In this document: positions 2,938 through 39,188 of the stretch, piece by piece
Position numbering within the stretch: position 1 is the stretch's first letter
Layout of the letters: each line of letters opens with the position of its first letter
IMG/VR virus record: IMGVR_UViG_3300043438_002211
Coordinates: 1-52,116 of that record
Source: a virus
Length of the DNA stretch: 52,116 nucleotides
Direction: 5' to 3' (one strand)
Translations under genes and position numbers: made by a program
The notes under the pieces: generated by a model
What the model was told of the DNA's origin: nothing
What the model saw: only the letters and a program-made list of their open reading frames with translations
Databases searched by the model: none

Positions 2938-3665
2938 TGACACCAGGGCAAATGTGGGTTAAAAGAAGATATAAGGATCTTATAAGTGATGTTGAAGAGG
3001 CAACATCTCTCATAAATGTTGAGGATCATAAAGACTTCAAAGACTATGCTACTGAAGTATATGATTCGGCTTTAGATATCTATATGTCACATACTGACCA
3101 CGAGTTAGATAATTTTTGGGACATATATAGTAGTATAATGGATTCAATGGAAGATATTTTTAATGATCAGTTGAAAGATTATTACGGTAATTCTGAAGAA
3201 ACCCTAAATGAAAACTTTGATCAGATTCTTGATTTATACAAAAAAGTTAAGGAAGGCGAAAAGTTAAAACCATCCGAACAATCTATGATGAGGTCGTTTA
3301 AAAATTTTGTTGATAAAGGTGGTAACGCAGAAGAGTTTGTTTACGATCTTGATCAAGAGATGATGCCAGATGAAAGAGAGGGTGAAAGATTTAGATGGGA
3401 AAGACACGGAACTCCTTTAACTTATGAGTTTTCCGAAGAATATGAATCAGATGGGGAAATAAATTACTTCGGTGAGATAAAATATATGGGCGATGAATTC
3501 CTTGGGGTTATCTCAACAGACAAAAGAGGTTATCTAACCGATTATGACTTTTATAGTGTGTTCGATGAAGAAGTTAGATTACAGGATATTTTAAAAGAAA
3601 ATGGACTCGAACCTGAAATAACCAACTTCTTTCAAGAAGAGATAATCAATTCATTAAGAAAATGA
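2934..3665 (+). CDS. hypothetical acidic protein, 243 aa
   Basis: Starts in an ATGATGA overlap with the nuclease-like gene, so either ATG (2934 or 2937) could serve. Acidic, unrecognised. Residues near 90-140 include a helical stretch (DQILDLYKKVKEGEKLKP...SFKNFVDKGG), and the second half has alternating charged beta-type sequence. It ends coupled to the class A gene at 3662, so translation probably passes along the operon without a separate promoter. Confidence 0.75.
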   Translation: MMTPGQMWVKRRYKDLISDVEEATSLINVEDHKDFKDYATEVYDSALDIYMSHTDHELDNFWDIYSSIMDSMEDIFNDQLKDYYGNSEETLNENFDQILDLYKKVKEGEKLKPSEQSMMRSFKNFVDKGGNAEEFVYDLDQEMMPDEREGERFRWERHGTPLTYEFSEEYESDGEINYFGEIKYMGDEFLGVISTDKRGYLTDYDFYSVFDEEVRLQDILKENGLEPEITNFFQEEIINSLRK

Positions 3666-4213
3666 AAATAGTTATCACGGAATCTCAAATGAGAATGGTG
3701 ATTGAGAGTTCAAACAAACCCACTCGTAAATCCGAAATTCTTAAAAAAATGTGGGATAAACAAACTAAAGAGAAAGGTTACCCGACTTTTGATGAAGATA
3801 TCTTAGGTTATTTCGGTATAGATAGATGGACGGATATTAGGGACTATGGTGAGTTCTTCAATGATTACATTGGCGGAGAAGAAAAAACTATGGAAATAAT
3901 TGATAACTTATCAATTAATAACTTCTCAACAAAAGATTTTCCTGAAATGTTTGTTGGTGGGTATGACTTTGATTGGAGAATCACTAATGTTTACGTAAAA
4001 GATGATGTTTATAAAATAGAGTGTCAAGTATCAGAAGGGGGATCTGTTACCACTATGGATGGTAGACACTTATCTTTAGAAGATGCTTTGAATGATGATG
4101 AGGTTGGATTTGAGATACAGGGTGAAGTAAGTGGAGTTATACAAGATTGTTTAAACTCATTAATATATCCGAGAACGGGAATAAAGGTTTTAGTGTATTA
4201 CGTGGAGATATGA
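3662..4213 (+). CDS. class A tagged protein, 183 aa
   Basis: Opens MKIVITESQMRMVIESS, a textbook class A tag (ITES gives an I-x-E site). Positions 20-60 contain a helical segment (EILKKMWDKQTKEKGYPTFDEDILGYFGI). The C-terminal half is predicted beta-rich and ends in a short Ile/Val-rich strand. Function unknown. The start overlaps the upstream stop (ATGA) and its own stop overlaps the next start, forming a chain of class A genes (3662, 4210, 4581, 4915). Confidence 0.8.
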   Translation: MKIVITESQMRMVIESSNKPTRKSEILKKMWDKQTKEKGYPTFDEDILGYFGIDRWTDIRDYGEFFNDYIGGEEKTMEIIDNLSINNFSTKDFPEMFVGGYDFDWRITNVYVKDDVYKIECQVSEGGSVTTMDGRHLSLEDALNDDEVGFEIQGEVSGVIQDCLNSLIYPRTGIKVLVYYVEI

Positions 4214-4581
4214 AAATAATAATTACAGAATCACAATTAAAAACTATAACATTTCAAAATACGGTTGATATGTCATTTGACGATATCAAAAAAAAATGTA
4301 ATAAGATGAACGAACTTGGCGCCGATGCCCCTGAGATTATTAGTTTTGATGTTTGTGATCAAATAGAGTCAATTTCAAAAGTTGAAGTTGTAAATGTGTA
4401 TAAAACAAACAATATGATTGAAATATCGATTATTGTTTATTACGAAACTATTTTTCAATCGTTAGATGTTGGTGGATTCCTCTATGAGTTAGAATATCAT
4501 TTGAGAGAATATTTAGGGAAAGGGAACTTTAAGTTAAAACTACTTAATTCAATAAATACAAGAGAGGACTTTAACTGGTGA
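4210..4581 (+). CDS. class A tagged protein, 123 aa
   Basis: I place the start at 4210 (MKIIITESQLKTITFQN) rather than at an upstream in-frame ATG at 4147, because the tag aligns with its paralogues and the ATGA overlap with the previous stop is typical here. The body has FDDIKKKCNKMNELGADAPEI and a C-terminal helix YELEYHLREYLGKGNF, similar in layout to other small tagged proteins. Function unknown. Confidence 0.8.
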   Translation: MKIIITESQLKTITFQNTVDMSFDDIKKKCNKMNELGADAPEIISFDVCDQIESISKVEVVNVYKTNNMIEISIIVYYETIFQSLDVGGFLYELEYHLREYLGKGNFKLKLLNSINTREDFNW

Positions 4582-4913
4582 TGAAAATAATAATAAGTGA
4601 AAATCAAATGATGAGTTTAAGGTTCAGACGAAGAGGTGTGGAACTTGATAAAATAAGTGATATAATTGAGTATCAAACTGAAATACAAGATCCTTGTAAT
4701 TTTGATGATGGTGAAGAATATGCGGATTTTTGTATAAACCAAGGAATTAGTTTTTATTATTGTGATGAAAATTATTGTGATGAAGATGATGAGGATTACA
4801 GAGAACCTTCTGATGAAATGATTGAGGTTAGAGAAGAAGTTGAAACATACCTAAATAATAAGTACTATAATTATTTAGTTAATTTATGGGAAGAAGATGG
4901 AAATTGTGATTAA
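4581..4913 (+). CDS. class A tagged protein with RRR motif, 110 aa
   Basis: Start at ATG 4581 (MKIIISENQMMSLRFRRRG); a GTG three bases upstream is in frame but unneeded. The segment after the tag, LRFRRRG....ISDIIEYQ, resembles LSLRRRLG....ASDLIDMG in the gene at 28921, so the two are likely paralogues. The middle is very acidic (YCDENYCDEDDEDY). No known domain. Confidence 0.8.
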   Translation: MKIIISENQMMSLRFRRRGVELDKISDIIEYQTEIQDPCNFDDGEEYADFCINQGISFYYCDENYCDEDDEDYREPSDEMIEVREEVETYLNNKYYNYLVNLWEEDGNCD

Positions 4914-4914
4914 T

Positions 4915-5217
4915 ATGAAAATAATACTAACAGAAAAGCAGGCGGATAGAATATTCAAAGACGAGATTGTTTGTGAGAAATGTGAACACTCTTGGAATAA
5001 AGAGGAGGGTGATAGACATCCATACCTTTGCCACGATTGTGGTTGGGACCTGAAGGAACAAAAATATGACAAAGAAAATCTTTATAAGTTTTGGAAGAAG
5101 AAATTATCTAAAGATCCTATTGAGGAAAAATGGTCTGAAAAATATAAAAAATCAATAAATTGTAAAAACCCAAAAGGTTTTAGTCAGAAGGCTCATTGTC
5201 AAGGGAGAAAAAAATAA
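4915..5217 (+). CDS. class A tagged zinc-ribbon protein, 100 aa
   Basis: The tag MKIILTEKQADRIF fixes the start at 4915, one base after the upstream stop; an in-frame ATG at 4897 would bury the tag. Residues 20-45 form a zinc ribbon (CEKC ... CHDCG). The C-terminus reads NCKNPKGFSQKAHCQGRKK, a Cys/His-containing tail I recall from unrelated phage proteins of unknown role. Likely metal-binding; function unknown. Last gene of the class A chain. Confidence 0.8.
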   Translation: MKIILTEKQADRIFKDEIVCEKCEHSWNKEEGDRHPYLCHDCGWDLKEQKYDKENLYKFWKKKLSKDPIEEKWSEKYKKSINCKNPKGFSQKAHCQGRKK

Positions 5218-7894: not shown

Positions 7895-8793
7895 GTGAAA
7901 AAAGAATAGTTAGTGTTGCGTCTTACAAAAGAATAGATAGTTTGGTTAAAACAATCGATTCAATTTATGATCAGTGTGATGAGATTAATATATTTTTAAA
8001 TGATCACGAAGGGGAAATTCCCCCTCAATTTTTAGATGAAAAAATAAACTTATATTTTTCCGATAATAGGTATGGGGACGCACTAAAGTTTGCAAAATTA
8101 ATTGATTCGGACGGTTATTACCTTACAATAGATGACGACTTAATTTACCCACCAAACTACGTTGACCATATGATCACAAGGTGTAAAGAGTTTTCAAATA
8201 AGAGGGTTATAACCCTACACGGAAGAAAGTTTTCTAAAGAACCAATAAAATCATTTTATAGTTCTTACATTGAATTTTATCATTGTCTTAGACATCAAAA
8301 AAGAGACGCGTTTATACATTTTGGAGGCACTGGTGTTATGTGTTTTCATACAAGTTTAATGAAAATACCAATCACATATTTTGAACATCCAAATATGGCA
8401 GACGTATGGGTTGGTAAGTATTGTATTGAAAATAATATTGAAGTATTATCAATTGCTCACGAGAAAGATTTCTTGACATACCAACCACAAACAACAACGA
8501 TATTTGATACTCATTCTAACTCAGATACAATACAAACAAAAATAGTAAATGATTTGTTTAACCCAAGTAAGGAGGTAAACGTGGTAATAGAAACACCACC
8601 TATTCATACTAAAATAGAAAAAACTATAGAAAAGAGCCAAAAAACTTTAAATTATGAAATGGTAAACAAAATATTTGGGAACCAACACCACTCCACGCCC
8701 AAATCGATTAAACCCGTCCAAACCCAACAAACAAGACCTTCAGGTAATGTCCATATGTTAAGTAAAATAATGGGTAAAAAAAGAGGTAGATGA
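7891..8793 (+). CDS. glycosyltransferase-like protein with extended C-terminus, 300 aa
   Basis: The first 200 residues have a GT-A layout: SVASYKRIDSLVKTIDSI at the start and YLTIDDDLIYPPNYV as the metal-binding segment. A FGGTGVMCF segment follows. Residues 225-300 form a low-complexity, Thr/Lys/Gln-rich tail ending in a basic KIMGKKRGR, possibly an anchor. ATGA overlaps couple it on both sides. Confidence 0.8.
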   Translation: MSEKRIVSVASYKRIDSLVKTIDSIYDQCDEINIFLNDHEGEIPPQFLDEKINLYFSDNRYGDALKFAKLIDSDGYYLTIDDDLIYPPNYVDHMITRCKEFSNKRVITLHGRKFSKEPIKSFYSSYIEFYHCLRHQKRDAFIHFGGTGVMCFHTSLMKIPITYFEHPNMADVWVGKYCIENNIEVLSIAHEKDFLTYQPQTTTIFDTHSNSDTIQTKIVNDLFNPSKEVNVVIETPPIHTKIEKTIEKSQKTLNYEMVNKIFGNQHHSTPKSIKPVQTQQTRPSGNVHMLSKIMGKKRGR

Positions 8794-10140: not shown

Positions 10141-10158
10141 TTGATTATATTTATTAAT

Positions 10159-11070
10159 ATGAAATTATCAATAACTGAGCAACAATATAAGATCATACAA
10201 TCTCGATTAAATTATAATCAAGTACTTGAGGAGATGGTATTTAAACTTTCCATCCTTACTGAAGATGAAGAAAGACAACCCGATATGGAGTGGGATTTCA
10301 CTGAAGTTAAAAATGAGTTAGACCTTTCAAAACTATGGGTTAAGACCAAAGAAGACGCAAAAGAATATCTATCCAACTTAAAAGAAAAGATTAAAAACCT
10401 ACCAAGTGATTTAAAAAAAAGAATATTAAAATATGTTCTATATTCTTTCTTAGGGTTATTATCGTTAAACCAAATCAACAATTACTTAGAAACACCATTA
10501 CAGAATGTTGTTAAAACAGAGAAGAAGATTTTTAAATCTATGGAGATCCCAAGGATTCGAAAATCTTCTGAAGGGATCTTTAACCATTTAAAAAGAGAGG
10601 AAGGGTCTGTTAGACATAAAGGCGAACCGATTTTAACAGCATACGACATTGGTGACGGAGCATATACAATAGGATATGGTCACGCAATATTTCCAGGTGA
10701 AGATGAGGGTTATGAATTCTTACCTAACTACAATGATATCGTACCAGGTCAAACTGCAATAACCAAAAAAAATGCTGAAACATTACTTAAAAATGATATC
10801 ATTGAAGCTGAAGGTATCATAAATAAAATTTTAGATGATTGGGAGAAAAAAGGTATTAAAACAAAAATAACGCAAGGTATGTATGATGCGATGGTGTCAA
10901 TGGCATACAATATGGGTAGTGGAATTAGGAAAAGTGATTTCATACAAGCGGTTAAAAGAGGTGATTTAGAAGGAGCCAAAGAATTGATCCTTCAGACAAG
11001 TTCACATATGTTTGATAAATTCCCTGGCCTTGAGGTGAGAAGGAATAATGAATATAATATGTTTGTATGA
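10159..11070 (+). CDS. class A tagged GH24 (T4-type) lysozyme with internal membrane segment
   Basis: The start at 10159 gives the tag MKLSITEQQYKII; an in-frame start at 10141 would precede the late-type box (10148-10154) and is rejected. A second L-x-E site (ILTE) is near residue 35. Residues 89-104 (ILKYVLYSFLGLLSL) are hydrophobic and may span a membrane. From about 137 the protein is a GH24 muramidase: E147/E148 in LKREEGS, then D163 and T170 in YDIGDGAYTIGYGH align with T4 lysozyme E11, D20 and T26, and FPGLEVRRNNEYNMF closes the fold. It would cleave the MurNAc-GlcNAc bond of peptidoglycan. Tag plus membrane segment suggests a virion-borne or exported enzyme rather than a simple endolysin. 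Confidence 0.9.
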   Translation: MKLSITEQQYKIIQSRLNYNQVLEEMVFKLSILTEDEERQPDMEWDFTEVKNELDLSKLWVKTKEDAKEYLSNLKEKIKNLPSDLKKRILKYVLYSFLGLLSLNQINNYLETPLQNVVKTEKKIFKSMEIPRIRKSSEGIFNHLKREEGSVRHKGEPILTAYDIGDGAYTIGYGHAIFPGEDEGYEFLPNYNDIVPGQTAITKKNAETLLKNDIIEAEGIINKILDDWEKKGIKTKITQGMYDAMVSMAYNMGSGIRKSDFIQAVKRGDLEGAKELILQTSSHMFDKFPGLEVRRNNEYNMFV

Positions 11071-11788: not shown

Positions 11789-12340
11789 ATGAAACAATTA
11801 GTAATTGACCCATCTCACTCTGACTTGGGATTTAAAATTAAACACTTGATGGTATCAAATGTTAAAGGAACATTAACTGATTATTCAGGTGGAATGAAAT
11901 ACACTATGGATGATATGTCAGATGCTGAGGTTAGATTTGAGGCTGAAGTTAAATCAATTTCTACTGGTAACACAGATAGAGATAAACACCTTAACAATGA
12001 AGATTTCTTCAACACGGAGAGGTTCCCTAAAATGTATTTTGAATCAACTTACGTTAATCTTGACAATGGAAAGATGAAAGGTGAAATGACAATCAAAGAT
12101 ACAACAAAAGAAATTGAGTTGGACATCGAATACAATGGTAAAAATACGGATCCTTGGGGTAACACAAAACACGGATTTGAAATTAGCGGAGTAATTAATC
12201 GTTCAGATTATGATCTTACTTGGAACGCGACTCTTGACACAGGAGGAGTATTATTAAGTGATGAGGTGAAGTTAAACTTAGATGTTCAGATGTTAGAAAT
12301 GGTAGAAAATTTAGAACCTCAATCTGAAACTGCGGAATAA
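11789..12340 (+). CDS. YceI-like lipid-binding family protein, 183 aa
   Basis: The opening IDPSHSDLGFKIKHLMVSNVKGTL and later GNTDRDKHLNNEDFFNTERFPKMYFES are diagnostic of the YceI family, a lipocalin-like barrel that binds polyisoprenoid-type lipids. KGEMTIKDTTKEIELDIEY completes the fold. Unlike E. coli YceI there is no signal peptide, so it would be cytoplasmic. Isolated between noncoding gaps, with no tag, it looks like an acquired host-type gene. The stretch around 11740-11790 probably carries its promoter. Confidence 0.9.
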   Translation: MKQLVIDPSHSDLGFKIKHLMVSNVKGTLTDYSGGMKYTMDDMSDAEVRFEAEVKSISTGNTDRDKHLNNEDFFNTERFPKMYFESTYVNLDNGKMKGEMTIKDTTKEIELDIEYNGKNTDPWGNTKHGFEISGVINRSDYDLTWNATLDTGGVLLSDEVKLNLDVQMLEMVENLEPQSETAE

Positions 12341-12369: not shown

Positions 12370-12398
12370 AATCCCTACATAATTGTGGGGATTTTTCT
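12370..12398 (+). terminator. intrinsic terminator
   Basis: AATCCC pairs with GGGGATT across a short loop and is followed by a T-rich tract. It closes the YceI-like transcript; the next late-type box begins at 12409. Confidence 0.75.
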
Positions 12399-12420: not shown

Positions 12421-13962
12421 ATGAAAAGTTTAATTAAAAAAGTATTACAGGAAGAGGTTAAAGGTATTTTAACTGAAAGTGGTATAAGAAACATACGTGA
12501 ATTAGCAAAGAGATACCCAATGGCTAAAATTTACTTTCACCAAGATTTGGATGGAGTAACTACGGCTTTAGCGATGAAAAACTATTTGGAACAACACGGG
12601 ATCAAAGTTGTTGATGCTGAGATAATCCAATATGGGGACAAAGAGTTTGCGATTAAGAAACAAGATGCTTCAGGTGATATAATGCCAGTACTTGTTGATT
12701 TTGCTCACGGAAAACCAATGTTTGTTATTCATACAGATCACCACGATACTCAAGCGGGTGTTGAAAAAGGAACCTCAACAAACTTTAAACCATCAAGATC
12801 AAACGTTGAGACGATCTCTCAAACAATTTCACCAAAGGATATCTTCACCAAAGATGATATTGAGTTAATTTCAATGGTGGATTCGGCTGACTACGCAAAG
12901 AATGATATCACACCAGAACAGGTAATGAATTATTTGTATAAGTTCGATAGAGAAAAATCAGTAGGTCAAAACAAAAAACTATTAGGTTTGATTACAAACA
13001 AACTTCTTTTAGCATTTAAAAACAAACCTAATTTCTTAAGAGATATTGTTATGAATGCTAAACCATCTTTAATGAGTATGTTATTAAACATTAAAGATCA
13101 GATGAAAACAAAAGGGTATGCTAGTATTGAGAACTTAGAAAAAAACAAAGAAGATTATGTTAGGTCTCAGAAAATGAATCCAAACGTCGATCTTCAAGAT
13201 AAAGTAATCGTTCAATATGGTGGTGGTAATATGATGAGACCTGGATCATATGATCGATTTACTCCATTTAGAAATAATCCTGAAGCTGACTTCTTGGTAA
13301 TTGCTTGGCCAATGGGAATGGTTCAGGCATCTTGTAATCCATTTAAGAAAGAAAGAGCACTTAAAGGTGTTAACTTAGGTGAGGTTAAAGATGAGGTCTT
13401 AGGTAAATGGGAATCTCAATTAAGAGAAAAAATGATTCCATTATCAACAATAAAGTGGGTATCTGAATCAGGAAAAGATTTCGGAGGAGAGTCAGTTGGA
13501 TTTACATTCAAAGATTTTATGGCACTTTATGGTGATAAATTCGATGGATCAAAAACAAGTGAAAAATCTTTAGAGGTTATCAAAAAAGCAATGGATACAC
13601 CATTCAAGGAATTATCCGAAAAAGAAATGGACTTAATGGATTCTATACAAGTTAGCGCTTGGGATTTAATAAATGCTAATAGTGGTGGACACAAATGTAT
13701 TACAAACATATCGGCATTGAATTACTTTGGTCGTGGAAAAAGACCACCAAAAGGAAAATATAGTTACGATGCAAATGCTGAAGATTCGGCATATGTTAAG
13801 TTTACGAAGATGATCCAACGTGAGTTTGCAAGAGTTCTTAAAGAAAAGATTGCAAAAGCTGGTGACGAAAGATATGAACCTGAGTATGAGATTGATGTTA
13901 ACGAATCGGTTAGAATTACCAAATCAAAAATCAAATCAAAACCTTATAAAATCAACAGATAA
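12421..13962 (+). CDS. class B tagged DHH-family phosphoesterase, 513 aa
   Basis: I use ATG 12421 (MKSLIKKVLQEEVKGILTES) because it sits six bases after the late-type box at 12409-12415 and recreates the class B tag; the longer frame from 12385 would translate the terminator. Motif DLDG at 42-45 (HQDLDGVTTALA), VDF near 93 and HTDHHDT at 104-110 are motifs of DHH/RecJ-like phosphoesterases, which use two metal ions to hydrolyse oligonucleotides, cyclic dinucleotides or pyrophosphate-type bonds. GGHKCITNISALNYFG is near the end. Substrate unknown. L-x-E sites at KVLQEE and GILTE. Confidence 0.85.
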   Translation: MKSLIKKVLQEEVKGILTESGIRNIRELAKRYPMAKIYFHQDLDGVTTALAMKNYLEQHGIKVVDAEIIQYGDKEFAIKKQDASGDIMPVLVDFAHGKPMFVIHTDHHDTQAGVEKGTSTNFKPSRSNVETISQTISPKDIFTKDDIELISMVDSADYAKNDITPEQVMNYLYKFDREKSVGQNKKLLGLITNKLLLAFKNKPNFLRDIVMNAKPSLMSMLLNIKDQMKTKGYASIENLEKNKEDYVRSQKMNPNVDLQDKVIVQYGGGNMMRPGSYDRFTPFRNNPEADFLVIAWPMGMVQASCNPFKKERALKGVNLGEVKDEVLGKWESQLREKMIPLSTIKWVSESGKDFGGESVGFTFKDFMALYGDKFDGSKTSEKSLEVIKKAMDTPFKELSEKEMDLMDSIQVSAWDLINANSGGHKCITNISALNYFGRGKRPPKGKYSYDANAEDSAYVKFTKMIQREFARVLKEKIAKAGDERYEPEYEIDVNESVRITKSKIKSKPYKINR

Positions 13963-14295: not shown

Positions 14296-14937
14296 ATGAA
14301 ACAACTCATCAGACATATATTAAAAGAAGAAGTTAATCGAAAATATTCTAAACCTACACCAAAGGTAGAACAACTTGTTTATAGATGGTTAAATGATTAT
14401 TTTAATGGTGCTCAAATGTACCACAACAAATCGTGGGAATCAACACATAGTTTTGAATTTTGTAATCACGGAAAAGAAATATTACATATTACTTTATATT
14501 TTAATGTTGATTATAGTGTTTATGATGATAAAAGAAAAACCGAAGAAAGAGATCTTGAGCGAGGTTACCTAACAGTTCCAAAAAATGTATTTGAAGAGTT
14601 ATCGTTAGATATTCCTGTAAGGGCAAGTTATTTAAAATACCTTTTTGAAGAATGGTTTGACGATACTTATTTAGGTGAAATTCAAAAGTTTATGGGTAGA
14701 AATGATATCTATATTGATGAATTTGATGTTACTGGTAGAGACGCTGAAACTTGCGTACCACCAGTAACAAAACCTGAAGATGTGAGTGATGAGGATATGA
14801 TACAATATATTCTTAAAACCACACTTTTTAAAAAAGATGATATATTAAAATATGAAAATGAAGAACCAGGTTGGATTGAAAAAACTTATTTAGAAAAACT
14901 TCGCGGTGATGAAATGGAAAGATTAAGAGGACAATGA
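14296..14937 (+). CDS. class B tagged protein, 213 aa
   Basis: MKQLIRHILKEEVNRKYS is the canonical class B tag. The remainder includes a helix-turn YLKYLFEEWFDDTYLGEIQKF near 120-140, a motif type (two aromatic residues before a W/F-x-x-x-F) repeated in sister genes. Late-type box at 14284-14290. First of five overlapping class B genes (14296 to 18374); function unknown. Confidence 0.8.
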   Translation: MKQLIRHILKEEVNRKYSKPTPKVEQLVYRWLNDYFNGAQMYHNKSWESTHSFEFCNHGKEILHITLYFNVDYSVYDDKRKTEERDLERGYLTVPKNVFEELSLDIPVRASYLKYLFEEWFDDTYLGEIQKFMGRNDIYIDEFDVTGRDAETCVPPVTKPEDVSDEDMIQYILKTTLFKKDDILKYENEEPGWIEKTYLEKLRGDEMERLRGQ

Positions 14938-15440
14938 GAGAACTAATAAGAAAAATATTAAATGAAAGTATAGTCAAGGATCAAGTTAAACAATTGATTG
15001 ATGATGAAGGTCTTGCAGGTGCTATAGAATATATTGGTGGTGCCGATAATTTAATTAAGATCTTATATAATGGTGATATAATGAAATACTACGAAGAAAC
15101 GGGATTCCGACCGATAAGATTAACTATAGATCCCAATTTATATATTGATGATCTAATTGTTCAAAAGTTAAATTTACCATCAATTAGGTTTTCAGGTCAA
15201 GATATGAAAGATTTAGGTGAGTTTAGTTGGACAACTAATGGTCATACTTATAAGTTTAATGCTCAATTGATACCAAGGGATCTTTACTCAGGTCAAAAAA
15301 TATGGAGAGTTGTTGGTCAATCAGGTGATTATGGATTTGGTTATTCATTTATTACTAAAAGAAATACATTAGGTAAAAGGGCAAGAACACAAATATACAA
15401 CCAAATAATAGATAAATACGATTTACAAGAGTACCTGTGA
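14934..15440 (+). CDS. class B tagged protein with EG-GG module, 168 aa
   Basis: Tag MRELIRKILNES is followed by a module at about 20-45 (DDEGLAGAIEYIGGADNLIKIL) that recurs in the genes at 15437, 23439 and 28045. The C-terminal half is beta-rich, ending in a basic helix. Function unknown. ATGA overlap with the upstream gene. Confidence 0.8.
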   Translation: MRELIRKILNESIVKDQVKQLIDDEGLAGAIEYIGGADNLIKILYNGDIMKYYEETGFRPIRLTIDPNLYIDDLIVQKLNLPSIRFSGQDMKDLGEFSWTTNGHTYKFNAQLIPRDLYSGQKIWRVVGQSGDYGFGYSFITKRNTLGKRARTQIYNQIIDKYDLQEYL

Positions 15441-16282
15441 GAGAACTAATTAGACATATCTTAAAAGAACAATCGAATAAACTTAAGTTATTAAAAGTAA
15501 TTCAAAATGAAGGTATTTTTAGTGCCGCTGAACTTGTCGGTGGACTAAATAACCTTAAAAGAGTATTCAAAGATAACAAGGCAATAATTGATAGAATTGA
15601 ATCTCTTAAAGGTAAAGTCACCTTTGGTTATGATGGAATCGATTTCCCGTTCAACTTTGATATCATTGGAATGAAGGCAAACAAGTGGAATACTAATTTT
15701 TGGCCAATAGTTAATGTTACTTATGACAATAGTGAATTAACTGAGGAGGAAGATAACTTGGTTAAACGTTTTATTATTGAAGGACAAGATAGTCCATATA
15801 ATGTTTCTTTAGATAAAAATTACGAAAAAATTAGGTTCAACACACCTAATTATATTACTATTAAGGAAATAAATGGTGAAAATGCTGATCAAATTGATTT
15901 CCCTATAGTACCATTTACAGATCCATTTGATGAAATGTTACAATTAAGAAGTAAGTTATATAAAAAAACATCTCTTTACGAAAGTGTTGAGGACACACAG
16001 AAAAACGTAATCAATTTTCTTATGAGAAGATATGAAGTTGAGGATAAAGATTTGGGTTGGGGTGAAGATAATTTACCGATGAGGTTAGTTAAATTCGACG
16101 TTAACGGACAAACCTACGTTATCACAAGTTTCGACACAAAAAGAAAACAGATAAATGAGATACTTTATATGTTAATCGAAAATAATATAATCGAGAGACC
16201 GTTTGAAAACTTTAACGAAAACGATCCGTATAGACAAAAAATAGTTAGAACAATTAAAATGTTTTTGAATAAAGTAATGTAA
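15437..16282 (+). CDS. class B tagged protein with EG-GG module, 281 aa
   Basis: Uses a GTG start inside a GTGA overlap; it then reads RELIRHILKEQSNK, nearly identical to the neighbouring tags, which supports that start. The EG-GG module follows (QNEGIFSAAELVGGLNNLKRVF). Residues from about 185 (ESVEDTQKNVINFLMRRYEVEDKDLGW) resemble a second unit joined to the first. Function unknown. Confidence 0.8.
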   Translation: MRELIRHILKEQSNKLKLLKVIQNEGIFSAAELVGGLNNLKRVFKDNKAIIDRIESLKGKVTFGYDGIDFPFNFDIIGMKANKWNTNFWPIVNVTYDNSELTEEEDNLVKRFIIEGQDSPYNVSLDKNYEKIRFNTPNYITIKEINGENADQIDFPIVPFTDPFDEMLQLRSKLYKKTSLYESVEDTQKNVINFLMRRYEVEDKDLGWGEDNLPMRLVKFDVNGQTYVITSFDTKRKQINEILYMLIENNIIERPFENFNENDPYRQKIVRTIKMFLNKVM

Positions 16283-16731
16283 TGAAAGAATTAATTAGAC
16301 ATATATTAAAAGAGGAGGTTAACAATAGTAAAAACATTACTAAAGGTATTAATCTTGCGGTTAAATTACTATCCAAAAAATATCCATTCATTGTTGGATG
16401 GAAATTGGCTAACGAATTAAATGATTATACATATACTATTTATGTGAACTTACTTGTAGATTTCCCAAAAGTTAAAGAATATTATGGACTTGAGACAAAT
16501 AAAGTATATTTAAGATCTCCCGAATTTATTTATGACTCAGGACACGGAAAACCTTACCCTTTCTCTGCTTTGGATTATGATAAAGTATTTGATGACCCAT
16601 TTTTTATTAATAAAGAGTTAGTGAATAATTTTTCTGACATATATAATGATTTACCTGATAGTTTAAAAATGGAACGTGGTGACGACAAATATAAAGATAT
16701 AAATGTGGATAGTTATTTTTATGTCAAATGA
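16282..16731 (+). CDS. class B tagged protein, 149 aa
   Basis: Tag MKELIRHILKEEVNNSK, then INLAVKLLSKKYPFIVGWKLANE and a strand-rich remainder. No catalytic motif. Overlaps both neighbours (TAATG at the start, ATGA at the end). Likely one of the duplicated tagged proteins of this stretch. Confidence 0.8.
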   Translation: MKELIRHILKEEVNNSKNITKGINLAVKLLSKKYPFIVGWKLANELNDYTYTIYVNLLVDFPKVKEYYGLETNKVYLRSPEFIYDSGHGKPYPFSALDYDKVFDDPFFINKELVNNFSDIYNDLPDSLKMERGDDKYKDINVDSYFYVK

Positions 16732-28044: not shown

Positions 28045-28521
28045 ATGAAAATCATTATCACAGAATCTCAATTAAATCTATTTCTTAATGAAGAATCATT
28101 AAAACAGAATCTACTATCTCAGATTGAGGAGAACGGGTGGGCTGAAACCGCCGAACTTGTTGGGTATAAAAACCTTTTAAACATTGTTGGTTATGATAAG
28201 TTGGTTGACTTATTGATTTCCTCTTTTAATGATTTAAATGTAATAACAAGGGGTCGTAATGTAATCTTACGTGATAACCACCTCCCATTAATGGAAACAA
28301 CTAAAGATGTATTTGGGGATAATTGGGTAATGGTATATAACGATCATATTATATTGAGACTCGAACTTAGATTGGGTTCCGACATTTTAGAAATTTATGA
28401 AAAAGTAAGAAGGGAATTCATTAGGGAACTAATAAATAGATTTCCTGAATTATCTGGACAAAAAGTTGAGGTCTTTAAAGACAGCGGACTTTATCAAAAA
28501 TACGATTCATTTGAGTTATAA
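28045..28521 (+). CDS. class A tagged protein with EG-GG-like module, 158 aa
   Basis: MKIIITESQLNLFLNEESL carries both I-T-E and L-N-E sites. The module follows (EENGWAETAELVGYKNLLNIVG), though here the usual second Gly is Tyr. It ends in a helix with FIRELINRFPELSGQKV. It combines a class A tag with a body otherwise found behind class B tags, so tags and bodies appear exchangeable. Late-type box 28032-28038. Confidence 0.8.
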   Translation: MKIIITESQLNLFLNEESLKQNLLSQIEENGWAETAELVGYKNLLNIVGYDKLVDLLISSFNDLNVITRGRNVILRDNHLPLMETTKDVFGDNWVMVYNDHIILRLELRLGSDILEIYEKVRREFIRELINRFPELSGQKVEVFKDSGLYQKYDSFEL

Positions 28522-28532
28522 TATTTATTAAT

Positions 28533-28913
28533 ATGGAACAATTAATTAAAAGGATTATTAGGGAGTCGGTTATGGGGAAGTTCGTTGAATCTCATATCCC
28601 CCAGCTTAACAACCTTAAAAGGAAATCTAATTATAGTTCTCGTTTGTATGGATCAAACGTTATCTATTACGATAAGGACAGTAAGGAATATTATTTTAGG
28701 GTTGCCGAACCAAGGGACGTATATTATTGGGACGAAGTTGAGGATAAGTACATATTAAGGAATGTCGGGAAAACCTTATATATCCTTAAAGATCTTTATA
28801 ATGAAATATCTGACTTCATCCCTAACGATGATATGATATTAAAATGGTTTAACGAGAAGTATAAACAAGATGCCGAAAGGTTGCAAACACATTATATTCT
28901 AAAACAAGCATAA
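28533..28913 (+). CDS. class B tagged protein, 126 aa
   Basis: MEQLIKRIIRESVMGKFVES is a class B tag. The strand-rich centre (NVIYYDKDSKEYYFRVAEP) is followed by MILKWFNEKYKQDAERL, the W-F-x-x-K-Y/F end seen in several sisters. Function unknown. Late-type box 28522-28528 overlaps the previous stop. Confidence 0.8.
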   Translation: MEQLIKRIIRESVMGKFVESHIPQLNNLKRKSNYSSRLYGSNVIYYDKDSKEYYFRVAEPRDVYYWDEVEDKYILRNVGKTLYILKDLYNEISDFIPNDDMILKWFNEKYKQDAERLQTHYILKQA

Positions 28914-28920
28914 CTCATCT

Positions 28921-29250
28921 ATGAAATTAATAATCACTGAAGATCAATATAATAAATTATCCCTACGTAGAAGATTGGGGGATATGTTAAATGTTGCGTC
29001 TGATTTAATCGATATGGGTGATGAATTTTATGGTAATCTTGATTTCTGTAAGTATTTCCCCACGTTTCAGAAATACATAAGTAATATAGTTGGGGACATT
29101 ATAGAACTTTATGACCCTGATTATGGTATTGATGATATATCTGATTTTATTTATGAGGGTGTTGGTTACGAAACCTTCGTTAAGTTATTAATGGATGAAC
29201 ACGGGGCTAAGATTAGAAGTTTCTATAATAGAAAAACAAGAGATTGTTAA
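28921..29250 (+). CDS. class A tagged protein with RRR motif, 109 aa
   Basis: MKLIITEDQYNKLSLRRRLG; the RRR segment and following helix resemble the gene at 4581. Cys at DFCKYFPTF and at the very end. Function unknown; co-transcribed with 28533. Confidence 0.8.
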   Translation: MKLIITEDQYNKLSLRRRLGDMLNVASDLIDMGDEFYGNLDFCKYFPTFQKYISNIVGDIIELYDPDYGIDDISDFIYEGVGYETFVKLLMDEHGAKIRSFYNRKTRDC

Positions 29251-29317
29251 TAATTCTGCCTTTCTTATTGAATCCGGAAACGGATCCCGACTTCGTCGGA
29301 AAAAAATCGACCGACCG

Positions 29318-29336
29318 AACCCTTCGGGTCTTTTTG
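29318..29336 (+). terminator. intrinsic terminator after tandem hairpins
   Basis: ACCC-TTC-GGGT followed by five T residues. Two further hairpins precede it (TCCGGAAACGGA and CCGACTTCGTCGG, 29274-29300), making a stack of three. Confidence 0.7.
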
Positions 29337-29404
29337 TGATTATTAAGTTGTTTACTTTAGTAGTCCCTTCAGAAAAAGGTGGTTGTTAATATATTTATTA
29401 TAAT

Positions 29405-30034
29405 ATGAAATACATTATAACCGAATCTCAGTATCAGTCCATTAAGGAGTCTTTAGAAAAAAACAAAAAGTTTTTAATTAAAACTATGGGTGTTGATCTA
29501 ACCGACAATATTCAGATGGTAAACTCACGATATGATGTCCCGACGGAATTTGATGAAGGTATTAGTCCTGATTTGGTTAGACGTATGTTAAACAATTGGG
29601 GACCTATGTATCTTTTTAATCTGAATGGTAAGGATTATTTATATCAGGATCGTGGGGAGTACGAATGGTTTATTGATACGGAGGGTTTTGAGTTTGTTGA
29701 TAATGAAATTATTGAGAAACTTGGGGTTGATGTATTGGGTATGGATTTTTCTGATATAATTAAAGTATTTTATACTGAAGATCAATCCATAAACGAATCC
29801 ACAGAAAAGGATTATACTTCCCTGATCGATAAGTTTATTTCCGAATATGATTTCCCTGATTATTTTAAGGGATATAACATTGGTAGAGATGACGACGCGT
29901 ATAAGGTCACATTTGTTGTCGGTAAAGAACAAATGAAAAGATACCAAGAGGTCTTCAAGGTAATCGAACCATTATTTGACGATATAAATTCTTTCATTCC
30001 AATTAATGTGTGGCCAAAGGTTGAGTATAAGTAA
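29405..30034 (+). CDS. class A tagged two-unit protein, 209 aa
   Basis: MKYIITESQYQSIKESLEK is the tag. A second I-N-E-S site (SINESTEKDY) near residue 120 precedes a domain (FISEYDFPDYFKGYNI...) that resembles the domain behind the internal tag of the 548-aa protein at 16728 (FIESLLEDYDLPENFKGV). So this too looks like a fused pair. Late-type box 29392-29398. Confidence 0.8.
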   Translation: MKYIITESQYQSIKESLEKNKKFLIKTMGVDLTDNIQMVNSRYDVPTEFDEGISPDLVRRMLNNWGPMYLFNLNGKDYLYQDRGEYEWFIDTEGFEFVDNEIIEKLGVDVLGMDFSDIIKVFYTEDQSINESTEKDYTSLIDKFISEYDFPDYFKGYNIGRDDDAYKVTFVVGKEQMKRYQEVFKVIEPLFDDINSFIPINVWPKVEYK

Positions 30035-32516: not shown

Positions 32517-33086
32517 ATGAAAATTGTTATTTCTGAATCCCAATATCATAGTCTTTTTAAAAGTCAAGATGAAAAGAACTCAAACCTCATCTATAAGATG
32601 TGGAATGATGGTATGGACATTTATGAGATTTCAGAACTATTGGGTATGAAGGAAACCCAAGTGGTCGTCCTACTTAAAGATAAAGAAATCAATATTGATT
32701 GCGGATTTGCCGATTACTTACTTCCAATACTTTATAAGACAAATTTACTTAATACAAAATTTAACTTTAACGGGGGTCAGATGAAAATTGAGTTAGAATG
32801 GTCGAATTTTGGTGGGTATCTAGAATTTGAATATGAGGACAAAGATTGTAGGTTAGTGGGAATGGCAACCCCTTATTGGAACGGTGATTGTACAACACCT
32901 GTTGATGGGAGTGAATTTGAAAATAAAATCACGGGTGATTACGTTGATAGTTACACAGAATTAGGTTTACGTATTGACTCCCCCTCTAATTTTAAATCAA
33001 TACAAGAACTTATGGATTTTCTAAACAACTATTTCCCAAAACAATTGATCATCCCAATAAGAACATTAATAGACTACTATAAATAA
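32517..33086 (+). CDS. class A tagged protein with helix-turn-helix-like segment, 189 aa
   Basis: MKIVISESQYHSLFKSQ is the tag (I-S-E). Residues 25-52 (LIYKMWNDGMDIYEISELLG then MKETQVVVLLKD) have the spacing of a helix-turn-helix of the Hin/Sigma-4 type. The remaining 120 residues are strand-rich (KFNFNGGQMKIELEW) and end in FLNNYFPKQLI. A DNA-binding function is possible but not shown. Late-type box 32505-32511. Confidence 0.75.
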   Translation: MKIVISESQYHSLFKSQDEKNSNLIYKMWNDGMDIYEISELLGMKETQVVVLLKDKEINIDCGFADYLLPILYKTNLLNTKFNFNGGQMKIELEWSNFGGYLEFEYEDKDCRLVGMATPYWNGDCTTPVDGSEFENKITGDYVDSYTELGLRIDSPSNFKSIQELMDFLNNYFPKQLIIPIRTLIDYYK

Positions 33087-36959: not shown

Positions 36960-39188
36960 ATGAGACATTTATTACTTTTATTTTTATTCCCCCTTTTTGT
37001 TTATTCACAATATTGTCCTGACTTGGGTCCAGATCAATTTTTACCTTGTGGGGTAGGAACAACAACTCTAACGGCTAATTTAAGTCAATGTGGGCCTGGA
37101 GGTCCTAACCCTAAACAAACTACGAATTATGGGGTGACTAACATTCCGTATGTTTCACAAACTAATACAGGGACTCAGTTATTTATGACTGATGATTCAC
37201 AACAGGGTCCATTTAATATTGGGTTTAACTTTTGTTTTTTTGGAACAACATATACTCAATTTTATGTTGGGTCTAATGGGTGGATATCATTCGGTGGGGG
37301 ACAACCAACAACGTTTACATCACAATCAATCCCAACGGGAAATGTGTTAGTCCCTAATAATTGTATTATGGGTCCTTGGCAAGATTGGCATCCAGGGATT
37401 GGTGGTCAGATAAGATATCAATTACAAGGCACTGCTCCTTGTAGGAAGTTAGTTATCAGTTGGATCGGTGTACCTATGTTCCAATGTAATAGTAATTTTG
37501 GAACATTCCATATTGTAATATATGAGACAACAAATATTATTGAAAATCATATCCAAGATAAACCTGATTGTTCTCAATGGCAGAATGGTACGTCAGTTCA
37601 AGGGATACATAACTCAACAGGTACGATTGGAATACCGGTTCCTGGTAGAAACTCAACCTCTTGGACTGCAAATAACGACGCATATCGATGGACGCCAAGT
37701 GGACCTACGGTAAATCCTGTTTTAACTTGGTTTAGAATAGGTAACCCTAACCCAATTGGGACTGGACCGACAATAAATGTAACTCCTCCCGCAATAGGTG
37801 CTCAATATACGTGTCGATATGTCTATCCTATCTGTAATGCGGGGTGGTCAACTTGTAATTCAGTTGCAGGACCAGGTCCTGACACCGTATTTGTTTTACC
37901 GGGTCTACCGAATCTACCTCAACCCACTATAACAACAACAAACCCAACGTGTTATCAGTATTGTGACGGATCAATAAATGTTGTTCCTGTTGGTGGAAAC
38001 GGAGTTCAAACAATTTCGTGGAATAACGGGATACCAAATAACTTTACTAACAACTTTTTATGTTCTGGTGTCTATAACTTTTTAATAACTGACTCTCAAG
38101 GTTGTACCGTAAGTGGGAATGTTACATTAGTGGATCCACCACAAATAATTGTAGACCCTATTGTTGGAACAAGTATCCTATGTTATAACTCAACTACTAA
38201 TCAGTTCACCACCTCGAGTCTAAACCCTAATTTAAATTACGTTTGGACGACAACAAATGGTAATATTACCTCAGGACAAGGGACTCCTCAAGTTAATTTA
38301 GACGTTACGGGTGTTAATGGGGGTAATTACCCTAATATGTTGTCGGTATACGCTGAAAATAACCTTGGATGTTTAAGTCAAACTGAAAATTTCACTATTG
38401 ATGTGTTAAACATACTCCCAATTATCGATCCTCTTGGTCCATATTGTGAATATGATGGGTGTGTTAACATTAATACAACACCTACAGGTGGTATTTTATT
38501 CGGTAATAACGTTTGGGGAACACAATATTGTCCTGACAATGGATTTATTGGGTTAGATAATGTTACTTACTCCTACACTCAGTCAGGATGTATGTTTGAT
38601 ACTACAATCAACGTACAAGTTTACCCAAGACCAACTTTAATTTCGGTAATTGATGGGAGACCAAACGTTAATTATGAGTTTCACGAACTATGTGAGGGTG
38701 ATAGTATTGTCGATTTATATGAAGCAACCTCATCTTTTGGTGGATATAACGAATGGTACGTGTTTGGGGACACATTACAAGGTCCTACAATAAACATTAC
38801 TTGGGATACTGAAGGATTATTTAGTTTTAATGTGGTAAGATGGGATAACGGGTGTGTTTCTTTACCCGAAACAATAGATGTTAACATAGAATTGTGTCCT
38901 GAAGAGTTAATTTACATACCTAATTCATTTACACCCAACGGTGATGAGTATAATCAAACGTTTTCACCTAGATTTACCGCAGGTTTTGACCCATATGACT
39001 TTAATATGAAGGTTTTTAACAGATGGGGTGAGTTAATTTGGGAAAGTAACGACCATAAATCGCCTTGGGATGGGACATACAATGGTAAAATGTGTCCTGA
39101 TGGATCATATAACTGGGTTTTAACGTTTGGACACCCTAAAACGGGTCTAAAAAAAGAAATAAGAGGTAATTTAACTATTACAAGATAG
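36960..39188 (+). CDS. secreted adhesin-like protein with type IX secretion C-terminal domain, 742 aa
   Basis: A signal peptide (MRHLLLLFLFPLFVYSQ, cut near S16) starts the protein. Residues 95-240 resemble a lectin- or nidogen-like beta domain (FYVGSNGWISFGG). A SprB-type repeat follows (CYQYCDGSINVVPVGGNG...CSGVYNFLITDSQGC). Residues 649-742 form a gliding-motility-type C-terminal domain: IPNSFTPNGDEYNQTF, MKVFNRWGELIWES, WDGTYNGKMCPDGSYNW. In Bacteroidota this type B domain directs export through the type IX system and surface attachment. A phage-encoded copy would be displayed on the infected cell or on the particle. Confidence 0.88.
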   Translation: MRHLLLLFLFPLFVYSQYCPDLGPDQFLPCGVGTTTLTANLSQCGPGGPNPKQTTNYGVTNIPYVSQTNTGTQLFMTDDSQQGPFNIGFNFCFFGTTYTQFYVGSNGWISFGGGQPTTFTSQSIPTGNVLVPNNCIMGPWQDWHPGIGGQIRYQLQGTAPCRKLVISWIGVPMFQCNSNFGTFHIVIYETTNIIENHIQDKPDCSQWQNGTSVQGIHNSTGTIGIPVPGRNSTSWTANNDAYRWTPSGPTVNPVLTWFRIGNPNPIGTGPTINVTPPAIGAQYTCRYVYPICNAGWSTCNSVAGPGPDTVFVLPGLPNLPQPTITTTNPTCYQYCDGSINVVPVGGNGVQTISWNNGIPNNFTNNFLCSGVYNFLITDSQGCTVSGNVTLVDPPQIIVDPIVGTSILCYNSTTNQFTTSSLNPNLNYVWTTTNGNITSGQGTPQVNLDVTGVNGGNYPNMLSVYAENNLGCLSQTENFTIDVLNILPIIDPLGPYCEYDGCVNINTTPTGGILFGNNVWGTQYCPDNGFIGLDNVTYSYTQSGCMFDTTINVQVYPRPTLISVIDGRPNVNYEFHELCEGDSIVDLYEATSSFGGYNEWYVFGDTLQGPTINITWDTEGLFSFNVVRWDNGCVSLPETIDVNIELCPEELIYIPNSFTPNGDEYNQTFSPRFTAGFDPYDFNMKVFNRWGELIWESNDHKSPWDGTYNGKMCPDGSYNWVLTFGHPKTGLKKEIRGNLTITR

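Follow-up and report, generated by a model that had tools for sequence, protein, structure and literature searches.

A tagged DHH-DHHA1 phosphodiesterase of uncultured phages, probably virion-internal, and a candidate ribosomal stop-hop in its relatives

Introduction

The gene at positions 12421 to 13962 of a 52,116-nt stretch of viral DNA (IMG/VR record IMGVR_UViG_3300043438_002211, positions 1 to 52,116, here called the window) raises the question of whether a phage enzyme of the DHH superfamily is carried into the host cell together with the DNA and, if so, on what it acts. A second question comes from relatives of this gene in which an in-frame stop codon interrupts the first catalytic motif. 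The window gene fairly probably encodes a two-domain DHH-DHHA1 metal-dependent phosphodiesterase that is virion-internal and most likely acts on short substrates early in infection. The interrupted relatives quite likely represent a programmed in-frame ribosomal stop-hop in nature.

The DHH core of the window gene

The features of the gene, for which a longer GTG start at 12385 exists as an alternative, are the following.

12421..13962, plus strand: DHH-DHHA1 phosphoesterase gene, 513 aa, ATG start at 12421
12421..12477, plus strand: N-terminal tag, residues 1-19, class B, MKSLIKKVLQEEVKGILTE, putative capsid-targeting propeptide
12445..12453, plus strand: first L-x-E site, LQE, residues 9-11
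12469..12477, plus strand: second L-x-E site, LTE, residues 17-19, conserved family-wide, just before the SGIR that starts the domain
12538..12555, plus strand: motif I, HQDLDG (residues 40-45), DxDG form, uninterrupted, Leu codon TTA
12697..12699, plus strand: motif II, Asp93 (LVDFAH)
12736..12744, plus strand: motif III, Asp-His-His, D106-H107-H108
12880..12882, plus strand: motif IV, Asp154
13684..13692, plus strand: DHHA1 motif GGH, G422-G423-H424

A preliminary description of this locus, made from its letters, had recognised a full DHH catalytic core, and this is confirmed. Motifs I-IV (DxD, D, DHH, D; motif I is H40-Q-D42-L-D44-G in the window protein) and the DHHA1 GGH are all present and unchanged across 37 homologues, and they are retained in eight remote homologues with 36-42% identity. 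After GGH the window protein continues with x-x-I-T-N, compared to the usual x-x-A-x-G. The Pfam DHH profile matches 37 of 37 family members (all E < 0.01, best E 6e-5). The window protein itself scores 20.4 bits (E 6.6e-4), below the curated cut-off of 28.1, and would therefore be missed by an automatic annotator. A PHROGs profile search with this protein gave no match, and a PDB sequence search, including one with a profile, returned chance hits only.

The N-terminal tag and probable packaging

The tag of the window protein reads MKSLIKKVLQEEVKGILTES. Its assignment in the preliminary description to a class B carrying L-x-E sites holds, with two such sites at residues 9-11 and 17-19. All 37 rows of the family alignment have glutamate E19 and, two positions ahead of it, L, I or V, whereas the remaining tag residues are variable. 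The class B tag is not due to chance: within the window, 5 of the 81 crude gene calls start with it, whereas none of 206 internal methionines does and 200 shuffles gave no case, a sixth copy at 15437 with a GTG start being left out of this count. The other class B proteins, all without an assigned function, are listed here together with those of a second tag, class A (MKIIITESQ). The latter is present on nine window proteins, one of them a lysozyme, and on none or almost none of the internal methionines and shuffles.

14296..14937, plus strand: class B tagged protein, MKQLIRHILKEEV
14934..15440, plus strand: class B tagged protein, MRELIRKILNES
15437..16282, plus strand: class B tagged protein, GTG start, MRELIRHILKEQ
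16282..16731, plus strand: class B tagged protein, MKELIRHILKEEV
28533..28913, plus strand: class B tagged protein, MEQLIKRIIRES
3662-5217, 10141-11070, 28045-30034 and 32517-33086: class A tagged proteins

Most relatives have only the short form MKKLIKES ahead of the DHH domain, and a remote phage clade has the form MxxxLxESG. The tags of a 634-kb phage, MISKYNQFINEE (MISKYNQFINE form), and a 642-kb phage, MLRKYGQFINEE (MLRKYGQFINE form), resemble the capsid-targeting sequence (CTS) of phage T4. Three distant phage clades thus carry an [L/I]-x-E tag in front of the domain, whereas the only convincing cellular homologue, from Myxococcales, does not. Since this homologue has no L-x-E at that place, the site is unnecessary for the domain. 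A third tag type, MKKxIITEEEKSRILGMH, was seen in a 257-kb relative (contig positions 73918-77303).

In T4, the cut by gp21 falls after L/I-x-E, and for packaging the ten N-terminal residues of IPIII are enough (PMC9026906). Like the T4 CTS of the internal proteins IPI-IPIII and Alt (PMC9026906), the tags described here are short N-terminal peptides that terminate in L/I-x-E and are shared by several unrelated proteins, in phages with a gp21-like protease and a gp23-like capsid protein, and the MxxYxxFIxE form occurs in the huge-phage relatives. Unlike it, the class B sequence MKxLIRxILxEE departs from the T4 consensus, and its packaging and cleavage are predicted. The related 257-kb phage (contig of locus L076), whose tRNA gene order is largely that of the window, encodes a prohead protease matching Peptidase_S77 (E 2e-23) and a capsid protein matching Gp23 (E 2e-64). 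In the latter, LINE ahead of ATSEG would be a plausible place for cleavage. Matches to a gp21-like protease in the huge phages are weak, and the window is a 52-kb fragment. Prohead protease and capsid genes are also present in bS21-encoding freshwater Bacteroidetes phages (PMC9723584).

The proposal that the enzyme is packaged and injected, already put forward as a possibility in the preliminary description, is well, if indirectly, supported by these gene data, although not proven, because the L/I-x-E tag is conserved across distant clades, the tag also stands on unrelated proteins, the phages of 634 and 642 kb have a T4-CTS-like form of it, and T4-type protease and capsid genes are present in a close phage. 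The 19-residue tag would then act like a T4 CTS and bind the prohead core, and the prohead protease would cleave after the conserved L-x-E. The freed enzyme would travel inside the head and enter the cell along with the DNA. If so, the tag provides a sequence handle on the whole packaged protein set of one abundant group of uncultured Bacteroidota phages.

Alternatively, the protein might be an ordinary late cytoplasmic nanoRNase that recycles oligonucleotides, with the N-terminal segment belonging to the fold. The structural comparison below places the fold nearest such enzymes, and the N-terminus is very short in most relatives. This reading is nevertheless doubtful, given the class B tag on at least five other window proteins, a tag type that shifts between clades while L/I-x-E persists, the untagged cellular homologue and the low prediction confidence for residues 1-22.

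Predicted fold and likely substrates

An AlphaFold model of residues 22-490 has a predicted local distance difference test score (pLDDT) of 85.3, whereas residues 1-22 are predicted with low confidence. A first model, with a pLDDT of 70.9, was poor around motif III, and the higher value was reached after the remote clade had been added. In VIA-align, the model matches PAP phosphatase 8a8k best (Z 16.5, root-mean-square deviation 3.9 over 283 residues), closely followed by PggH 7d62 (Z 16.4, 4.9 over 276 residues), and then the T. maritima phosphodiesterase (Z 13.6), RecJ (Z 12.9), nanoRNases (12.6) and NrN 9lqc (Z 11.4). Whole-length matches to many DHH-DHHA1 structures, at Z 16.5 to 11, indicate that the modelled protein has the two-domain DHH-DHHA1 fold. 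PggH, a pGpG phosphodiesterase, and the archaeal PAP phosphatase share this fold and the DHH and GGH motifs with the window protein. The latter differs in being larger (513 aa), with about 12% identity, in its altered DHHA1 motif and L-x-E tag, and in being phage-borne.

The domain with an OB fold that follows DHHA1 in bacterial RecJ is absent in the model: the RecJ match stops at its DHHA1 (chain residues 61-426), leaving about 30 low-confidence residues. Short substrates are favoured because of this absence and of the ranking of the folds. The likeliest activity would be the hydrolysis of linear dinucleotides, pAp-like nucleotides or oligonucleotides of 2-5 nt in the first minutes of infection, which might rid the cell either of signalling or toxic nucleotides or of nano-RNA/DNA.

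A RecJ-like single-stranded DNA exonuclease, acting in recombination or replication or against incoming DNA ends and packaged only incidentally, is rather unlikely. In its favour, the NCBIfam RecJ profile weakly matches 28 of 37 members (E down to 9e-5), Foldseek lists archaeal and bacterial RecJ (E 4e-6 to 5e-4), and the DxDG type of motif I is common to RecJ. However, there is no space for the OB-fold domain, the small dinucleotide and PAP hydrolases outrank RecJ (Z 16 vs 13), the DHHA1 motif differs from GGHxxAxG, and the tag points to a virion protein.

The preliminary description gave a list of candidate substrates that is fair for DHH enzymes. Its emphasis on cyclic dinucleotides, and hence on countering the cyclic oligonucleotide-based antiphage signalling system (CBASS), found no specific support, as the fold comes closest to enzymes that hydrolyse linear dinucleotides, pAp and nanoRNA, with RecJ next. 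Cyclic dinucleotides and SAM-AMP are possible substrates. An injected phosphodiesterase directed against the signals of CBASS, type III CRISPR (cyclic oligoadenylate) or SAM-AMP systems is thus conceivable, if doubtful. DHH enzymes with such activities exist, and one structural neighbour (Z 11.4) is NrN, the enzyme that hydrolyses SAM-AMP in Bacteroides fragilis (PMC10600005). In the available text of Iyer et al. (2021; PMC7824862), a role in countering SMODS/CRISPR signals has already been proposed for DHH phosphodiesterases of jumbo phages. Those proteins resemble the window enzyme in being phage-encoded members of the DHH superfamily with a possible counter-signalling role, and that text holds no tag or packaging argument for them. 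The host is probably a member of the Bacteroidota, because the window encodes a 742-aa protein (36960-39188) with a CHU_C type IX secretion domain at its end, which phages do not usually have; such a host would also suit a counter-signalling role. On the other hand, neither NrN nor a ring nuclease was found to be related in sequence, the higher-ranking fold matches act on other substrates, and no anti-defence neighbours were recognised within the window. Should the enzyme indeed enter with the phage DNA, it would act ahead of phage gene expression, when nucleotide-signal defences fire.

Several points weigh against a virion-internal enzyme of short substrates. The window is a fragment without head genes of its own, L-x-E is a short motif, and the tag of most relatives, with only 8 residues, could be no more than a conserved stretch at the N-terminus of the domain. 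In other phages of the family, the DHH gene adjoins a DNA methylase, SmpB, NUDIX or glutamine synthetase gene, not head genes. In addition, substrate specificity cannot be given by a fold alone.

An in-frame stop inside motif I of relatives

Pattern scans identified 37 contigs, with 19 distinct sequences, in which motif I, HQD-L-DG, reads HQD-CTN-STOP-CTN-DG, for example CAC CAG GAC CTT TGA CTT GAC GGN.

L085:9083-9108: interrupted motif I
L088:8683-8708, minus strand: interrupted motif I
L094, L104, L106, L108, L114, L116 and 29 further contigs: interrupted motif I

In the 18 sequences with the full element, the stop is TGA in 13, TAG in four and TAA in one, and the flanking codons are CTT/CTT (11), CTT/CTG (5) or CTG/CTT (2). 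In uninterrupted genes, the Leu codon of motif I is TTA in 25, TTG in 22 and CTT in 5. A scan allowing any nine bases between HQD and DG returned these 37 contigs plus one unrelated gene. None of the DHH genes has a sense codon in place of the stop; therefore, a two-residue insertion is not seen. A pattern match in L151 was discarded as a chance occurrence in an unrelated gene. The window's own gene has neither an in-frame stop nor the stem element described below.

The code after the stop is under strong purifying selection. Downstream of the stop, the ratio of nonsynonymous to synonymous substitution rates (dN/dS) is 0.04-0.19 and mostly < 0.1, like in uninterrupted genes, with dS near saturation in some of the pairs. 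Over the eight codons from the stop to the first ATG, the amino acids are kept while synonymous change is free. This ATG is absent in two of the 18 sequences, which argues against re-initiation there.

A conserved stem upstream of the stop

Of the 19 interrupted sequences, 18 have a conserved stem, up to 19 bp long, that extends to the codon before the stop, referred to as the take-off codon. Its 5' arm, GTCCTGGTTGAAAGTGGATT, encodes VLVESGL and hence also an L-x-E, and its 3' arm, AATCTACTTTCACCAGGAC, pairs with the 5' arm and ends with the base that immediately precedes the take-off codon. Over the 19 pairs, 97.1% of the cells in the alignment of interrupted sequences are paired, compared to 36-51% when the arms are slid. 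One pair, the only one with two-sided change, covaries (G-C in 11 sequences, A-U in 7). The 90 nt before take-off have a mean folding energy of -35.1 kcal/mol (z -5.1 to -10.4), whereas 52 uninterrupted homologues, the window gene among them, lack the stem and have a mean of -9.7, with z of -2.9 or above. The arms have synonymous codon identities of 0.95 and 0.82, compared to 0.69 for the loop and 0.54-0.55 for the downstream part; as both arms are coding, their conservation is partly owed to the protein.

With a covariance model of the element, whose matches all lie in DHH genes, intact sites score 96-117 bits; the L099 group reaches 59 bits, and uninterrupted DHH genes do not exceed 37 bits. 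An Rfam search for the stem element yielded no known element. Pairing of stop and stem as a general feature of these genomes was rejected, because, of the 35 same-codon stop joints in the contigs examined, only three, all DHH sites, have a strong upstream stem. The L099 group (L099, L103, L113, L119 and L120; one sequence) has no 5' arm and a second in-frame TAA 84 codons on, and is apparently a decaying gene copy.

A probable ribosomal stop-hop and its alternatives

The simplest mechanism would be a peptidyl-tRNA-Leu hop of six bases. The tRNA-Leu would leave CUU (or CUG), pass over the stop and re-pair on CUU or CUG six bases on. The stem could refold behind the ribosome and aid the hop, as proposed for T4 gene 60 (PMC5009743, PMC11194080). 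Skipping exactly one stop-plus-Leu unit restores HQDLDG, and the joined peptide would be IYFHQDLDGVTT.

Stop-hops were described in synthetic constructs in 1987, and no natural in-frame case was known as of a 2016 review (PMC5009743). The introduction of a 2024 study names T4 gene 60 and yeast mitochondria alone as bypassing cases (PMC11194080). As in T4 gene 60 bypassing and the synthetic stop-hops (PMC5009743), the take-off codon lies just before the stop and the landing codon can be read by the same tRNA. A strong stem-loop 5' of take-off is likewise shared with gene 60. In contrast to gene 60, the gap is 6 nt and in frame, not 50 nt and out of frame, the gene is another one, and any of the three stops is used. 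The short in-frame gap would make the element a stop-hop and not a homologue of gene 60. The window's own gene, unlike both gene 60 and the interrupted relatives, is without a bypass element.

Readthrough, a broken gene, or termination and re-initiation in place of a hop are together unlikely. Readthrough is the commoner recoding event, but it would insert two residues between metal-binding aspartates, and the scan showed 37 Leu-stop-Leu genes beside no DHH gene with a sense codon; moreover, the 257-kb phage is without a suppressor tRNA. That phage apart, none was found among the few tRNAs of the other stop-containing contigs. The L099 group (five contigs), lacking the 5' arm and having a second stop, suggests that at least this lineage is degraded, whereas in general the downstream dN/dS is like that of uninterrupted genes, contrary to what a broken gene predicts. 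As to re-initiation, the codons from stop to ATG are conserved as protein, and two of the 18 sequences are without that ATG.

Other candidates were rejected as well. A prfB-type +1 frameshift at CTTTGAC is contradicted by a +1 frame that soon stops, downstream code in frame 0 and the existence of TAG and TAA versions, and a reassigned stop codon by three different stops at one homologous position. No above-cut-off match to a phage release factor was obtained in the stop-containing phages.

If the stop-hop reading is correct, this would be, to our knowledge, the first natural stop-hop, and it would occur across tens of phage contigs, in an enzyme family that is probably packaged. It offers 18 diverged natural examples with all three stops, a covarying pair and clean negative controls, and is short enough for a simple reporter assay.

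The phage of the 257-kb contig, which has the proposed stop-hop, also carries two CUN-reading tRNAs, tRNA-Leu(AAG) and tRNA-Leu(UAG), on locus L129 (bases 40001-60000 of the contig), and the same stretch has a tRNA-like gene with a four-base anticodon call (actt).

L129:7331-7417, 8647-8726 and 14782-14856: tRNA features

Spread of the element and distribution of the family

The 24 interrupted rows in an 80-protein tree require nine state changes, at least six of them forced by well-supported branches, with some interrupted rows on long branches. When interrupted genes are compared with their nearest uninterrupted relatives, the 81 nt before take-off show only 58-68% identity, against 80-91% for the rest. 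Spread by recombination of a 5' cassette is the likeliest explanation, and the stop-hop element looks like an exchangeable 5' cassette of a single DHH gene.

The family of the window enzyme is essentially viral. At least 598 IMG/VR stretches encode a member, and in the phage collection relatives were found in uncultured huge phages of 635-735 kb only. Among 84,980 bacterial and archaeal genomes, just two loci were retrieved, L146 and L147. The former, with a protein of phage type, is taken for a phage contig, while the latter (L147:7662-9491) is the Myxococcales protein, from a metagenome-assembled genome, which is about 34-36% identical to the window enzyme. Its apparent signal peptide indicates that this homologue may be exported.

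C-terminal fusions or extensions of the DHH enzyme occur in L039, L066, L086, L071, L010 and L025. Profile matches assign SET and peptidoglycan-binding/hydrolase-like domains, and by eye alone a probable GNAT-like domain (L025) and a muramidase-like domain (L010) were added. The SET, probable GNAT and peptidoglycan-binding/hydrolase-like fusions suit a delivered protein.

With regard to neighbouring genes, SmpB, the partner protein of tmRNA, is encoded at L031:10249-10758 (Pfam E 1.4e-48) and in some 50 further loci, where it typically follows the DHH gene at a distance of 0.5-1 kb. It is present with and without the stop, and a link between SmpB and the element was therefore dismissed. A glutamine synthetase gene lies near the DHH gene at L033:4336-5610, and this gene family was seen in 27 loci. 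In the window, a gene for a YceI-like protein (11789-12340, Pfam E 1e-43) is located directly upstream of the DHH gene.
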